From a virus: a DNA stretch of 22,650 nt. The stretch is taken from positions 1 through 22,650 of the IMG/VR virus record IMGVR_UViG_3300011445_000071. One strand, 5' to 3'. Positions 4,899-12,780 of this stretch are shown here, piece after piece. A model generated the notes under the pieces. That model was not told the DNA's origin. It made no database searches and worked only from the letters and a program-made list of their open reading frames with translations. Both the position numbers and the translations under genes were made by a program. Numbering within the stretch: position 1 is the stretch's first letter; every line of letters starts with the position of its first letter.

Positions 4899-5945
4899 CT
4901 AGGAGACGATCTCGATGCCACCTTGCATCGCGTTGACTTCAGCCGGGGTCCACGCAAGCCCGGTGAGCGGGTTGAGTGCGTACATCTGATCGTAGTAGGC
5001 GTAGTCGGTAAGTGCGATCGACTGGGCATCGCCTTGGTCGTCACTGCCCGCAGAGCGAATGAGCGTGGCAAGCTGCCGCCCACCCGGGCTGGTCTTCACC
5101 GCATTGGCGAGGAGCTGCAGGCCGTAGACGGTGACGCCGAGCGGGATGGTCGGGTAGAGGAAGAGATCCTTCTGGCCGATGGTGGAGGAGCCGAGGTAGT
5201 CGGTGCCATCGTTCGGCGGCGTTTCATCGACCAGCGCGCCGTGATCGGTGCCAGTCGAGGGCGTCCACTGCTGATAGAACCCGCCGCCGCCCACCGCGTC
5301 GGTGTAGGGGACGTCGTCCCGCACGCGGATATCGCCGAGGAAGGCGTTGTCGGGCGCCGAGCCAGAGAGATCGCCCCAGTAGGTGTCGCACATGTACCCA
5401 CGCGGCTGGGGGTAGATGAGGTTCCACTGGCCGAACGTCGACGGGTTCGTGCTGTCGATGTTGCCGGAGTCGTACTGTTCCACGCCGTCGACAAAGATGC
5501 GGAAGAAGCCCGTCGAGGCGTGGATCTTCCACTCGTAACCGATGTGAATGTAGTGATTGAGCGAGACTAGCCCAGCGGGGGTGCTGCCAACCAGCGCGCC
5601 GATCGAGGTGTTCGCCCCATTCCACGCACTGATCGAGCCGTTCGCGTTGATCACGAAGAAGGCGAGGATGTTCACGGTCGAGGTGCTGCAGAGGTCGAAC
5701 ACCGAGGTGACGTTGAAGCTCTCCGCTTTGACGGCATGGCCGAAGTAGCCCCCAGCGTTACTGGTCGTGACGCCCTTGAAGCAGCCGTTGCCCGCCGCCG
5801 CGTTATTGTAGAAGGCGGATCCGCCGCAGCGCCCCGCACCGGGGACGACGGAGGAGTTGGCGAGATCCACCCCCTGCCAGTAGCTCTCTACCTTCGCGAC
5901 GCTGTTGCCGTACTTGTTCCAGCCGTCACCACTCAGGAGTGCCAT
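4899..5945 (-). CDS. LamG/concanavalin-A-like tail appendage protein (348 aa)
   Basis: The ATG at 5945 overlaps the stop of the upstream gene by one base (TGATG). The first 200 residues look like a LamG-type beta sandwich: alternating strands, a NHYIHIGYEWKI strand and the typical hairpin GFFRIFVDGVEQYDSGNID. The middle has CDTYWGDLSGSAPDNAFLGDIRVR and WTPSTGTDHGALVDETPPND. The end carries LNPLTGLAWTPAEVNAMQGG, a C-terminal pattern I associate with LamG-like minor virion proteins of many tailed phages. Such proteins are presumed to bind glycans or sit on appendages. There is no hydrolase signature. The role as a carbohydrate-binding virion protein is inferred; the fold call is fairly strong. 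Confidence 0.8.
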   Translation of the reverse strand: MALLSGDGWNKYGNSVAKVESYWQGVDLANSSVVPGAGRCGGSAFYNNAAAGNGCFKGVTTSNAGGYFGHAVKAESFNVTSVFDLCSTSTVNILAFFVINANGSISAWNGANTSIGALVGSTPAGLVSLNHYIHIGYEWKIHASTGFFRIFVDGVEQYDSGNIDSTNPSTFGQWNLIYPQPRGYMCDTYWGDLSGSAPDNAFLGDIRVRDDVPYTDAVGGGGFYQQWTPSTGTDHGALVDETPPNDGTDYLGSSTIGQKDLFLYPTIPLGVTVYGLQLLANAVKTSPGGRQLATLIRSAGSDDQGDAQSIALTDYAYYDQMYALNPLTGLAWTPAEVNAMQGGIEIVS

Positions 5946-8643: not shown

Positions 8644-10020
8644 CTAGTAGCCTACCCGTCCGCCACGATCCATGACCTGTGCGTTGGTCACAGAGACCAT
8701 GAAGACATCGCCACCCCCTGCATCTTCGTGCTGCAACGCGCCGATGTCGTGATAGCCGGTGCCGCCAACGGGCAGCACGCCTGGATAGCCCACCGCGCGC
8801 GCAGCCGCGCCTGCTCCAGCCGTCGCGTTGAGCGAAAAGTCCTGCCCGGCGGCATTCGTGAAGAAGGAACCGGTGCCCGTCACGAACGCTGTACTGGTCA
8901 CGGCGAAGCCCGTGCCAAGGGCGGTGTTGCCACCCGTGTTACTGAAGGCTGCACAGTGCATGAGTTCAACGGCCGAGTTATTAACATTATCGAAGCCAAT
9001 TCCCGTATTGGATTCCGCGATGCAGTTCTCGAAGAACGCAGGGCCGTCACCGAGGCGGAACCCGTCGCGGCCATTGCCGTAGGCCACGCAATCGATCATC
9101 GTCGCGAGTTGTGCGGTCGTGATAAAGCCGTCTGTGGTCGCCCCACTATTGCTGTCTGAGATACAACGGATACAGGTTGCCGCCACGGAAAATCCAGCGA
9201 CGGTGTTCTCGTAGGCGACGCAATCGACCGCCTGCGTAAATGCTGTGAATGGGCTAATCGTTGCACACCCAGTCGCCGTGCAGCGATAGAGCGAATGCGA
9301 GTTCGAGACGACAAACCCCCCGTTGTTACAGTTTGCGACATGGCACGCCACGAGAAGCCCGCGCTGGAGGAAACCACGGCTGGACGTGAGGGAAGCCCCG
9401 TCAGCGGAGAGGTTACAAATGAAGCTGCGTGCTCCTGTCATCGTCCAGATCGCAAACGTCGAAATCCCACTCGCTTGAAAGAGTGGCTTCGTACCTCTAT
9501 CGCCGCGGGTTGTTTGGTAGCCCTCCACGTAGAACGGCCCAGTCCCTGTGAAACAGCCCCCGCTGACGTTCGTAGAAGCTGACGTGATGGAATACGTGCC
9601 GCTCTTGATCCACGCGCGGACCCCGCCAGTCGCCAGCGCCAAGCCGAGTTGCCCAATGGACCCCAAGGCCCCACCAATGTTCATGGTGATGCCCGTGCCG
9701 GCGGCCACGTTGCGATCCACCGTGATGGACGTTGACGACGTAAAAATGGTGACTTGGTAGTAGCCGGCGGCCAATCCGCCAGAGCCTCCAGCGAGATAAA
9801 TCACGTTGCCGACGATATCGGCAGTGAATGACGCGGTGACAGACGTGATGACGCCCGTGCCGACCGCCACGGCGTCGGCGGTGGAACTGTTATTCCCGCC
9901 GCTGTTGGCAGCATCCTGCTGAGAAAAGTCCACCCCTGCGGCACCCGCAACAAATCCGCCGCCGTTAGTATCGGCACCAGCGGTGCGAACTTCCCAAATT
10001 GTGCTGGAGGAAACCGCCAT
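8644..10020 (-). CDS. Right-handed beta-helix tail appendage protein (458 aa)
   Basis: The ATG at 10020 lies four bases after the upstream stop. The N-terminus (SSTIWEVRTAGADTNGGGFV, then SQQDAANSGGN) matches the capping segment of many beta-helix proteins of uncultured phages. Residues 220-372 form successive turns that each carry a Cys at a similar place: CHVANCNNGGF, CTATGC, CVAYENTVAGF, CISDSNSGATTDGF, CVAYGNGRDGF, CIAESNTGIGF and CAAFSNT...GTGF. The C-terminus has VGGTGYHDIGALQHED. Parallel beta-helices of this kind act as tailspikes or glycan-binding/degrading fibres. I see no certain catalytic residues, so lyase or hydrolase activity is possible but unproven. It sits directly after a probable lyase and a small protein. 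Confidence 0.85.
   Translation of the reverse strand: MAVSSSTIWEVRTAGADTNGGGFVAGAAGVDFSQQDAANSGGNNSSTADAVAVGTGVITSVTASFTADIVGNVIYLAGGSGGLAAGYYQVTIFTSSTSITVDRNVAAGTGITMNIGGALGSIGQLGLALATGGVRAWIKSGTYSITSASTNVSGGCFTGTGPFYVEGYQTTRGDRGTKPLFQASGISTFAIWTMTGARSFICNLSADGASLTSSRGFLQRGLLVACHVANCNNGGFVVSNSHSLYRCTATGCATISPFTAFTQAVDCVAYENTVAGFSVAATCIRCISDSNSGATTDGFITTAQLATMIDCVAYGNGRDGFRLGDGPAFFENCIAESNTGIGFDNVNNSAVELMHCAAFSNTGGNTALGTGFAVTSTAFVTGTGSFFTNAAGQDFSLNATAGAGAAARAVGYPGVLPVGGTGYHDIGALQHEDAGGGDVFMVSVTNAQVMDRGGRVGY
8908..9345 (-). repeat. Beta-helix rungs with a cysteine ladder
   Basis: Within the 458-residue protein, cysteines at residues 226, 247, 267, 286, 311, 333 and 356 recur every 19-25 residues, most within C-x-A-x-x-N-x-x-x-G-F. 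This fits stacked coils of a parallel beta-helix with Cys stacked in one face. Confidence 0.75.
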
Positions 10021-10024
10021 CTAG

Positions 10025-10345
10025 TTAGTACTGCTCAGGATTCACCGCGATTTTGAGTGCTCGATTCCGTCGCACGTTGCTCGCCGCTTCCATGTCCGTG
10101 ATAAACGTTGAGACATCGGTAATAAAGGAGGCGACATCGGCATCCGTGATGATCGACCGTCCATCTGTAGCTGAACCGTCCACGAGGATGTTGCCTGCCC
10201 CGCCAGCGAACATCGCCGTCCACCCCTCAGCCACCGCCTCGGCTTGAAGAGATTTGCAGAGATTGAACAGTTGACCGAAGCGATCGGCGAGCGGCCGGAT
10301 CTTGGTATTCGCAACGAGAATGGCTTGCGGGTTGGTGTTCGGCAT
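10025..10345 (-). CDS. Small conserved-type phage protein (106 aa)
   Basis: The ATG at 10345 is preceded by AGAGGA four bases upstream, a good ribosome site. The protein opens with PNTNPQAILVANTKIRPLAD and a helical segment (FGQLFNLCKSLQAEAVAEGW). It then has AMFAGGAGNILVDGSATDGR, TDADVASFITDVSTFITDME and a basic end (NVRRNRALKIAVNPEQY). Phage proteins of this size and pattern (N-terminal ADRxxQLYxxxK helix, then DGxxxDGRxxITxxDV) are frequent beside tail-fibre genes. It may be a chaperone or small linker between the lyase upstream and the beta-helix downstream. Function unknown. Confidence 0.8.
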   Translation of the reverse strand: MPNTNPQAILVANTKIRPLADRFGQLFNLCKSLQAEAVAEGWTAMFAGGAGNILVDGSATDGRSIITDADVASFITDVSTFITDMEAASNVRRNRALKIAVNPEQY

Positions 10346-10387: not shown

Positions 10388-12481
10388 TCACCATGTGAAC
10401 CGCGCGTCCCACACACCACTCCCGCCGATGAGTGTGAGCGCCCATTCGCTGGCTTCGAGCGCCCCGCCCGCCTCCGTCCAGAACTGATTATCTTTCGGAA
10501 AGTTCTGCACGAAGTCGTTGTCGTCCACCCACCGATGTGAGGGGCCGCCGACGATCTTCAGCCGTGCACCAGGCGCAGAGAGAATCTGCATCGTCACTGG
10601 ACCGATGACGATCTCGTCAGGCAGGGACATCTCCGTGAAGCCATCAGGCACCGACACCCCGTTGATCACCGGGCGAAAGGCGGGATACCACCGCTGCCAC
10701 GCCTCCATCCCCGGTTGCAGATCGAGATCCTCCAGCACGCGCAGGAAGTCGTCGCCCCATTCGTACGTTCGCACGTAACGGGTCACGCGGGTGGCGAGAT
10801 AGTGCTTCGTGAGGTCGGCGACGGCGCGTCCCGGCGTCCACGCCTTAATCCCGCCAAGGTCATCTTCCGGACGAATCTGCGGCACGATCCGCGCTTGCGT
10901 GTAGGTACCGCCGTACCCGCCGGAATACCCGGTGATGGGCAGATCCGGCACGCCCACCTGGTAGACCCGCATGGCATTCTGTCCGTAGGCGCCTTTGGCT
11001 GAGTCTCGATAGTCACCGACGTGCTTGACAAGAACTGGAACACCCTCTGCCGTGAGCGTGACGCCAAGGGGAATGGCTTCACGCGGACCCCCACCTTGCG
11101 CGGCCCAAGTATGCCCAATCAAGTAGACCGGCGGCGCTCCCATCGTGATCTGTGTCTTGTCAGCCCGGTTCACCGCTACAAGCCCGTAGGCTTCGCTAAA
11201 CCAGGTAAAGTCTTTAGGAGGTTCGACAGGGACTACTTCCGGATTGGCTGTCAGCATCGTCTGGAGGTAGTACGCCGCTGGCATCCCGGTGGGAATCGGG
11301 CCGCCGAGGAAGGCCGCCCACTGCGCTTCAATACCGTCCAGCACCCCCGTAAGCATTTGCATCACGTCTTTGGAGATGCCCAGCGGCGCGGCGGAAGTTC
11401 CGAAGGGAATCAGCGCACCTGGCTTGTGAGGTTTCTGTGTCGCAATGGCCGTCCGTACCCAATTCCTCGCCCACGACCCGGCATTGATGTAGTCCGTGCC
11501 GGTCGCGATCTTCCAGGCGTGCATCGTGAGGATGATCCGTGTGTAGTACCAATTCCCATACGCCCCGAGCACGCGCTGGCCGAAGTCGCCGCGCGATTCA
11601 TAGTTGAGAAGATCCAGCCACGATCCGTTCAGCCATTGCACGGGGAAGCTATCCAAAAGTTGCTGGCACTGCGCTTCCGCAAATCCCGACCAGCGAATAG
11701 CCAGGCCGTAGTAGGCGTAGTGATGATCCTCAGACCCTGGTGATTTCTCCAAGGCGTATGGCACCGTCGTCAGTGCCGAGCCGAAATGCAACGTGGTATT
11801 CCCCAGCCATTCCGCGACGGCCTGCTTGTCCGCAGCGGTAAACCCGGGATAGTCCCAGAGGAACCCCAACGCACGCGCGACGCACGCAACCGACTCATCC
11901 TGCGAATGGAACGGATGGTTGACCGCGCCCCACAACTGATCACCTGACAACGGCTGCACGACCTGAAGGCGTAAGAGGCGGATGGCTTCTTCCGCTGCCG
12001 CCGTCGGTTCCGTCTTCGCGCCGTACGTGATGCCTGGAACCACTCCGGCAAACCACGACCATGCGTAGAGGTCAGCGAGTTCACCTGGGTACTTGGGCGG
12101 CTTCTTGGGCGGCACATTGAGTGCGCCGATGAACGACTGCCACTGGGCGTTCCACACCCCAGTCAGCCAGCCTTGGAACCGCGTACGCTGCTCGGTGGTG
12201 TAATGCAGCGGTTGCACACCTGTCACGACCACGATCGGGCGTGTTTCGGTGTCGGTTTCTACAGATGGACCGGCGCACTCTGCTCCCCCGTTCCCGGCTG
12301 GGATGTCAATCGTGCGCGAGCGCGATCGAGAACGACTCTCCGTGCCATCGCCGTTCGGCGTCCACGCAGACCAGTCAGACCACGCAGACCACGCTGACCA
12401 GACGCAATCAATTGGAGGTGCGAGGTGCGCGTTGAGATCCGCCTGGAGCTGAAGGAGAAATTCGCGATCTGTCATCGTCAT
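10388..12481 (-). CDS. Thrombospondin-1-like domain fused to heparinase II/III-like lyase (697 aa)
   Basis: The start is the ATG at 12481, overlapping the upstream stop as ATGA; a second ATG lies six bases on. The open frame extends to 12592 but that part overlaps the zinc protein gene. Residues 26-71 resemble a thrombospondin type-1 repeat: C26, Trp at 28, 31, 34, 37 and 40 in WSxW steps, then GDGTESRSRSRSRT and NGGAECAGP. From about residue 95 to 410 the chain is helical with many Trp (alpha/alpha toroid style), including SEDHHYAYYGLAIRW at 250-264. A beta-sandwich follows with YLIGHTWAAQGG at 453-464, GVPVLVKHVGDYRDSAKGAY and QNAMRVYQ. These correspond in order to the H..D, GxPxLxxxGxY and HNxxxV features of heparinase II/III-like polysaccharide lyases. 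It probably degrades or binds host surface glycans. Substrate and catalytic residues are not established. Confidence 0.75.
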   Translation of the reverse strand: MTMTDREFLLQLQADLNAHLAPPIDCVWSAWSAWSDWSAWTPNGDGTESRSRSRSRTIDIPAGNGGAECAGPSVETDTETRPIVVVTGVQPLHYTTEQRTRFQGWLTGVWNAQWQSFIGALNVPPKKPPKYPGELADLYAWSWFAGVVPGITYGAKTEPTAAAEEAIRLLRLQVVQPLSGDQLWGAVNHPFHSQDESVACVARALGFLWDYPGFTAADKQAVAEWLGNTTLHFGSALTTVPYALEKSPGSEDHHYAYYGLAIRWSGFAEAQCQQLLDSFPVQWLNGSWLDLLNYESRGDFGQRVLGAYGNWYYTRIILTMHAWKIATGTDYINAGSWARNWVRTAIATQKPHKPGALIPFGTSAAPLGISKDVMQMLTGVLDGIEAQWAAFLGGPIPTGMPAAYYLQTMLTANPEVVPVEPPKDFTWFSEAYGLVAVNRADKTQITMGAPPVYLIGHTWAAQGGGPREAIPLGVTLTAEGVPVLVKHVGDYRDSAKGAYGQNAMRVYQVGVPDLPITGYSGGYGGTYTQARIVPQIRPEDDLGGIKAWTPGRAVADLTKHYLATRVTRYVRTYEWGDDFLRVLEDLDLQPGMEAWQRWYPAFRPVINGVSVPDGFTEMSLPDEIVIGPVTMQILSAPGARLKIVGGPSHRWVDDNDFVQNFPKDNQFWTEAGGALEASEWALTLIGGSGVWDARFTW
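12269..12406 (-). repeat. TSP1-like segment with WSxW repeats
   Basis: The stretch encodes WSAWSAWSDWSAW, the SRSRSRSR run and NGGAEC of the lyase protein. The Trp ladder, Arg run and flanking cysteines (residues 26 and 69) match the layered W-R core of thrombospondin type-1 modules, though most disulfide cysteines are absent. The DNA of 12362-12400 is a diverged 9-base repeat as a consequence. Confidence 0.7.
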
Positions 12482-12780
12482 GGAGATACGCCACCCCTTC
12501 GTTCCTGTTGATCGAGCCATTTTTCGAGCGGCAGACACGTCCCGAGATCGTGACAGCGCAGACAGACCGGCTTGCCCCCACAGGTCCAGCACCCAGCCCC
12601 CGCTTCTTCCATCCAGATGAGGAGTCCTTCGGGCGTCCGCTGCTGGATCAAATACGTGGTCGACACGGAGTTCGGCTTGGTGAAAATAATCGTGCCGCAG
12701 TGGGCACAGGTGATCGTGTCGTACTCGCCGAGCGGGCGATCCGGGTCGATGATCGTCGCATAGCCCTGCGCGTGCCGCAT
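12478..12780 (-). CDS. Zinc-binding small phage protein with three CxxC pairs (100 aa)
   Basis: The ATG at 12780 follows the upstream TAG after five bases, and the end overlaps the next ATG as ATGA. It begins RHAQGYATIIDPDRPLGEYD, then TCAHCG (C25, C28). A second half holds GCWTCGGKPVCLRCHDLGTC (C64, C67, C73, C76, C82), then an amphipathic end (LPLEKWLDQQERR). The spacing fits one or two zinc ribbons. Small proteins of this pattern (opening with a GYA...DP...EYDT strand, then CxxC and CxxC...CxxC...GC) are frequent in structural operons of tailed phages. They may help assembly or sit at the neck, but I know no proven function. The zinc-binding call is strong; the role is open. Confidence 0.85.
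   Translation of the reverse strand: MRHAQGYATIIDPDRPLGEYDTITCAHCGTIIFTKPNSVSTTYLIQQRTPEGLLIWMEEAGAGCWTCGGKPVCLRCHDLGTCLPLEKWLDQQERRGGVSP

Follow-up and report, generated by a model that had tools for sequence, protein, structure and literature searches.

An Exchangeable Phage Cassette Encoding a Two-Cysteine TSP1 Module and a Putative Surface-Glycan-Active Region

Introduction

The locus studied here raises the question of whether a tailed phage, so far seen in metagenomes alone, encodes a protein that binds and cuts the glycans of its host. Surface polysaccharides are the phages' route to the host, and cassettes for adhesins or depolymerases are an established type of phage element. In this study, the gene P0001 (10388..12481, minus strand, 697 aa) was analyzed in a 22,650-base stretch of viral DNA from IMG/VR, referred to as the window. 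An initial annotation of the same DNA had described P0001 as a thrombospondin type 1 (TSP1)-like segment fused to a heparinase II/III-like lyase, which would act as a bind-and-cut depolymerase on the phage tail.

Results and Discussion

Gene and Genomic Context

P0001 begins with an ATG at 12481; four bases (ATGA) are shared between its start and the end of the upstream gene, including the stop of the latter. An alternative, longer GTG start at 12592 lies inside that upstream gene. P0001 is part of a co-directional run of structural-region genes, and the gene order of this region is common to related contigs. The window encodes a portal-like protein (phrog_156 in PHROGs, E = 1.7e-10) and a conserved 356-aa protein that is, by position, probably the major capsid protein; searches with these two proteins gave some 75 related contigs. 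The upstream neighbor (12478..12780, minus strand) encodes a Cys-rich protein of 100 aa, is kept in relatives, and is the last gene ahead of the cassette described below. The protein has CxxC-type pairs and gave only weak matches to DUF7576/DUF7577. The N-terminal 25 residues of P0001 (MTMTDREFLLQLQADLNAHLAPPID; 12407..12481, minus strand) showed no signal peptide by eye, and no relatives of this segment were found.

TSP1 Module of P0001

Residues 26–85 (12227..12406, minus strand) contain a Trp ladder, an Arg/Ser run, NGGxxC, and ETRPIVV. The WSxW ladder is formed by W28, W31, W34, W37, and W40; the Arg/Ser run lies at about residues 49–56, and NGGAEC occupies residues 64–69. The single-sequence Pfam match to TSP1_spondin (E = 0.011, 16.5 bits) was below the curated cut-off of 41. 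This cut-off was taken as a naming threshold, and the TSP1 assignment rests on profile, relatives, and fold. In the PDB, the segment weakly matched the TSP1 domain of UNC5D (E = 0.0026).

Relatives of the module were collected by searching IMG/VR for the codon pattern of D-C-V-x-S-x-W-S-x-W-S-x-[W/C]. Thirty-six stretches matched. On translation, about 32 of them gave TSP1-like sequence, in many cases as tandem copies, and four proved to be chance frames. TSP1 modules were thus obtained from about 30 other phage contigs. Since the search pattern fixed the ladder, a profile built only from the part of the phage modules after the Trp ladder was used as an independent test. It scored 19.5 bits on residues 41–90 of P0001, and the maximum in 5000 shuffles was 13.1 bits, which excluded a chance low-complexity origin of the signal. 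The TSP1-like segment seen in the initial annotation therefore stood clear of low-complexity background. In whole-record searches, the phage modules matched residues 21–117 at E = 2e-12. Residues 26–85 shared 42–51% identity with the nearest phage modules, the best being 51% (contigs L095 and L099).

The AlphaFold model of the module, for which the related modules served as the input alignment, had a pLDDT of 89. The 29 best PDB structural matches of the model were TSP1-bearing proteins, with UNC5D, ADAMTS13, C9, C8, and properdin at the top. Query TM scores were 0.29–0.49 and Foldseek E values were above 0.05, as expected because the domain is so small. When the phage-module profile was compared with the PDB, nearly all 30 matches were named TSP1-bearing proteins, including complement C6–C9, F-spondin, thrombospondin-1, UNC5, properdin, and MIC2. 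Residues 26–85 of P0001 are a genuine TSP1 module, despite the Pfam score below the cut-off.

Most phage TSP1 modules have four cysteines. The modules of P0001, L095, L099, L103, and L121 have only the first (DCV) and the third (NGGxxC), with Trp and a non-Cys residue at the second and fourth positions. In P0001, Cys26 and Cys69 are retained, and the other two are replaced by Trp and Arg. This variant is consistent with the joint loss of one disulfide, under the presumed pairing. The Trp ladder is longer in P0001 than in the other four modules. The ladder falls within 4.3 tandem copies of a 9-bp repeat (12362..12400), in which its successive (Ser-Ala/Asp-Trp) steps are encoded, and replication slippage would thus be a simple source of the additional length. 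Compared with TSP1 repeats in general (PF19028 TSP1_spondin and PF00090 TSP_1), P0001 shares the Trp ladder, the Arg layer, NGGxxC, and the predicted fold, whereas it differs in its Pfam score below the cut-off, in having two of the four cysteines of the phage module, and in its longer ladder.

TSP1 Modules in Other Phages

The initial annotation had regarded TSP1 as best known from animal and protist surface proteins. The motifs that it named (WSxW, the Arg/Ser run, and NGGAEC) were borne out; the module is common in phage proteins and is not confined to animals and protists. Pfam matches above the cut-off were obtained for L094 (five repeats, E = 1.6e-58), L109, L089, L099, and L103; the close module relatives L099 and L103 passed it with 41.3 and 43.1 bits. 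Tandem TSP1 proteins were observed at L094:3-1262, L109:12600-13487, L101:2-2410, and L090:4381-10107. Arrays of TSP1 thus recur in phages. The presence of TSP1 in tailed phages is also already known, being named in the public BFVD entry A0A6J5N7M8, 'Thrombospondin type-1 (TSP1) repeat (Fragment) [uncultured Caudovirales phage]'. Within the literature collection searched, no paper on TSP1 modules in phage proteins was found. A tblastn search of the phage collection with TSP1 modules gave no matches, which low-complexity filtering may conceal.

The module of P0001 recurs in L095, L099, L103, L121, and A0A6J5N7M8; the Trp-for-Cys variant is common to the four contigs among these. The module is located close to the C-terminus in these proteins, or else next to PKD/Ig, propeller-like, or CEMIP beta-helix regions, whereas a counterpart of P0001 residues 118–697 was absent from all of them.

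Exchangeable Cassette in Related Phages

The sister contigs L003 and L011 share 92% DNA identity with the window up to 12491, in the last bases of the gene preceding P0001, and are unrelated beyond this position. The slot of P0001 is occupied in L003 by a protein of 824 aa that matches G8 (E = 1e-5) and CEMIP_beta-hel (E = 7e-11). Next come the gene for a 199-aa protein and a homologue of the 458-aa gene at 8644..10020 (minus strand) of the window, which closes the replaced block in L011. The 824-aa protein (L003:8425-10899, equal to L011:6001-8472) had a signal-peptide-like start by eye, and no relative of it was found in the phage collection.

Relatives more distant than L003/L011 lack the P0001 gene: in L005/L006, the homologue of the 106-aa downstream gene (10025..10345, minus strand) directly follows the homologue of the upstream neighbor; therefore, the TSP1 gene is missing there. 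Neither P0001 nor TSP1 was found in any relative of the searched related-contig group. The equivalent downstream regions of relatives encode collagen, Laminin_G_3 (lectin-like), beta-helix, and BppL_N proteins. In a further relative, L010:20417-22123, downstream of the same conserved gene, encodes a protein with collagen-like repeats (Pfam Collagen, E = 1.6e-24). The GC3 of cassette genes was 0.65–0.72, compared with 0.80–0.87 for most core genes. These results showed that the P0001 gene is in an exchangeable cassette, a fixed slot whose content is swapped between close relatives. The window also contains a member of the phrog_2448 family (4899-5945). Relatives carry one to three members of this family close to the cassette, and it also occurs in Brevundimonas, Mesorhizobium, and Pseudomonas phages.

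Animal relatives of the CEMIP-type beta-helix are described as depolymerizing hyaluronan (PMC10276149). Proteins of this G8/CEMIP kind (PF10162, PF24606) not only occupy the slot of P0001 in L003 but are also fused to a TSP1 module of the same kind as that of P0001 in L121. There, a Trp-type TSP1 module and CEMIP_beta-hel (E = 6.5e-19) are combined in a 1258-aa protein (L121:8050-11823), whose beta-helix part shares 29% identity over 703 aa with the L003 protein. TSP1 of this type therefore travels with a glycan-enzyme-like domain. The start of the L121 protein was also signal-peptide-like by eye, and the protein gave a weak thrombospondin type 3-like match. The G8/CEMIP proteins belong to another fold class than P0001, which has no beta-helix signature.

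C-Terminal Region and the Heparinase Question

Residues 96–697 (10391..12196, minus strand) form one or more orphan domains. No family match was obtained in Pfam, NCBIfam, the PDB, or PHROGs. Homologues of P0001 or of its C-terminal part were not found in phage records, with peptide patterns or the D-H-H-Y-x-Y-Y-G pattern in IMG/VR, or in genome contigs, nor were P0001 homologues found in about 1,570 sampled genomes of Bacteroidota, Verrucomicrobiota, Planctomycetota, Pseudomonadota, and Actinomycetota; these searches reach only fairly close relatives. A few matches at E values of about 0.002–0.006 were short or off-target and were all judged to be chance (three of six inspected). Candidate polar sites are D252-H253-H254-Y255, H457, G489-D490-Y491, and Q501-N502.

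The initial annotation had read this region as a heparinase II/III-type polysaccharide lyase (PF07940), with an alpha toroid, a beta sandwich, and His/Tyr/Asn catalysis, from the order of its His, GxPxLxxxGxY, and QNxxxV features. By eye, the features of residues 425–600 do come in the order known from the C-terminal domain of Hepar_II_III, with FxExxGLVAVNR, H457, GVPVLV..GDY, GQN, and R-x-R..D..L.V.EDL. However, the quoted GxPxLxxxGxY is not present in P0001; the motif reads GVPVLVKHVGDY, that is, GxPxLxxxxGxY, one residue longer. A relaxed pattern, H...GxxL..GxY...QN..V, occurred in 1.3% of shuffles, in 8 of 1187 unrelated ORFs, and in 5 of 36 true Hepar_II_III proteins, and is not specific for this family. 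The active-site motifs of the family are HxHxD...DxGxY...HN. P0001 has only HxW, GxY, and QN of this set in similar order, and HxHxD, present in 17 of the 36 members, is absent.

Profile comparison did not recover the similarity either. A profile built from 36 full-length proteins with Hepar_II_III_C matches, taken from bacterial genomes, scored −2.6 bits on the C-terminal part, below many shuffles. The hhalign probability against Hepar_II_III was 0.2%, inside the shuffle range, although the best, non-significant segment fell at the matching place of the profile. The single-sequence AlphaFold model of residues 96–697 was helical before residue 410 and strand-rich after it, the only source of a helix-then-strand order. 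With a pLDDT of 34 this model was unusable, and its layout was dropped as evidence, as was the residue-propensity profile, which was flat. Every sequence test of heparinase II/III identity thus failed; by eye, a few residues stand in a loosely similar order. A lyase of this type joined to TSP1 is possible, with the balance against it, and a toroid/beta-sandwich heparinase-like fold of residues 96–697 is likewise possible at about the same, lesser likelihood. The lyase explanation overlaps with the preferred reading given below, and the likelihoods attached to the different explanations in this study therefore do not add up to one.

Proposed Function of P0001

Within the structural region of this phage, P0001 is probably a swappable cassette of the adhesin/depolymerase kind. 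The protein would consist of a short N-terminal segment, the two-Cys TSP1 module, and about 600 further residues. The TSP1 module probably binds or positions, and its target may be a glycan or a protein. The C-terminal region of about 600 residues would most likely act on host surface polysaccharide, putatively as an enzyme. P0001 may be carried on the virion; the location on the phage tail given in the initial annotation follows from gene position. Binding or cutting of surface glycans is favored because a CEMIP-type protein occupies the same slot and because TSP1 and CEMIP are fused in L121. The bind-and-cut depolymerase of the initial annotation therefore gained indirect support, and the absence of a detectable catalytic family in residues 96–697 counts against its enzymatic part.

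In other phage proteins TSP1 adjoins PKD/Ig modules and repeats, and so it may be a mere spacer. P0001 could then be a non-enzymatic receptor-binding or spacer protein, in which TSP1 serves as a linker or rigid rod and the large domain is a head that only binds. The lectin-like and collagen-like proteins in the equivalent region of relatives agree with this explanation. It is nevertheless rather unlikely, as the sister phage has, directly in the place of P0001, a CEMIP-type beta-helix protein, whose animal relatives are described as hyaluronan depolymerases (PMC10276149).

Judging from the signal-peptide-like starts of the L003 CEMIP protein and the L121 protein, the proteins encoded in this slot might be secreted and not part of the virion. 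P0001 would in that case be an accessory gene (moron) within the structural operon, or one for a secreted or cargo enzyme. The insertion relative to L005/L006 and the lower GC3 would also fit this explanation, but it is the least probable one, given that the P0001 start is not signal-peptide-like and that the gene overlaps its upstream neighbor within the co-directional structural run.

A further proposal is more speculative and improbable at present. Residues 96–697 might represent an undescribed family of polysaccharide-active enzymes, coupled to a disulfide-poor TSP1 module and interchangeable at one locus with CEMIP-type, hyaluronidase-like enzymes. Such a family would be part of a toolkit against hyaluronan-like or glycosaminoglycan-like coats.

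Discussion of TSP1 modules usually concerns animals and protists, but they recur in phage proteins. TSP1 in phages and the cassettes themselves are known; the combination of an orphan 600-residue domain, a disulfide-poor module, and a CEMIP-type swap is a variant that merits structure determination and assay. The locus at which the TSP1-orphan protein and the CEMIP protein replace each other is a natural pair for asking what TSP1 and the large domain bind or cut.
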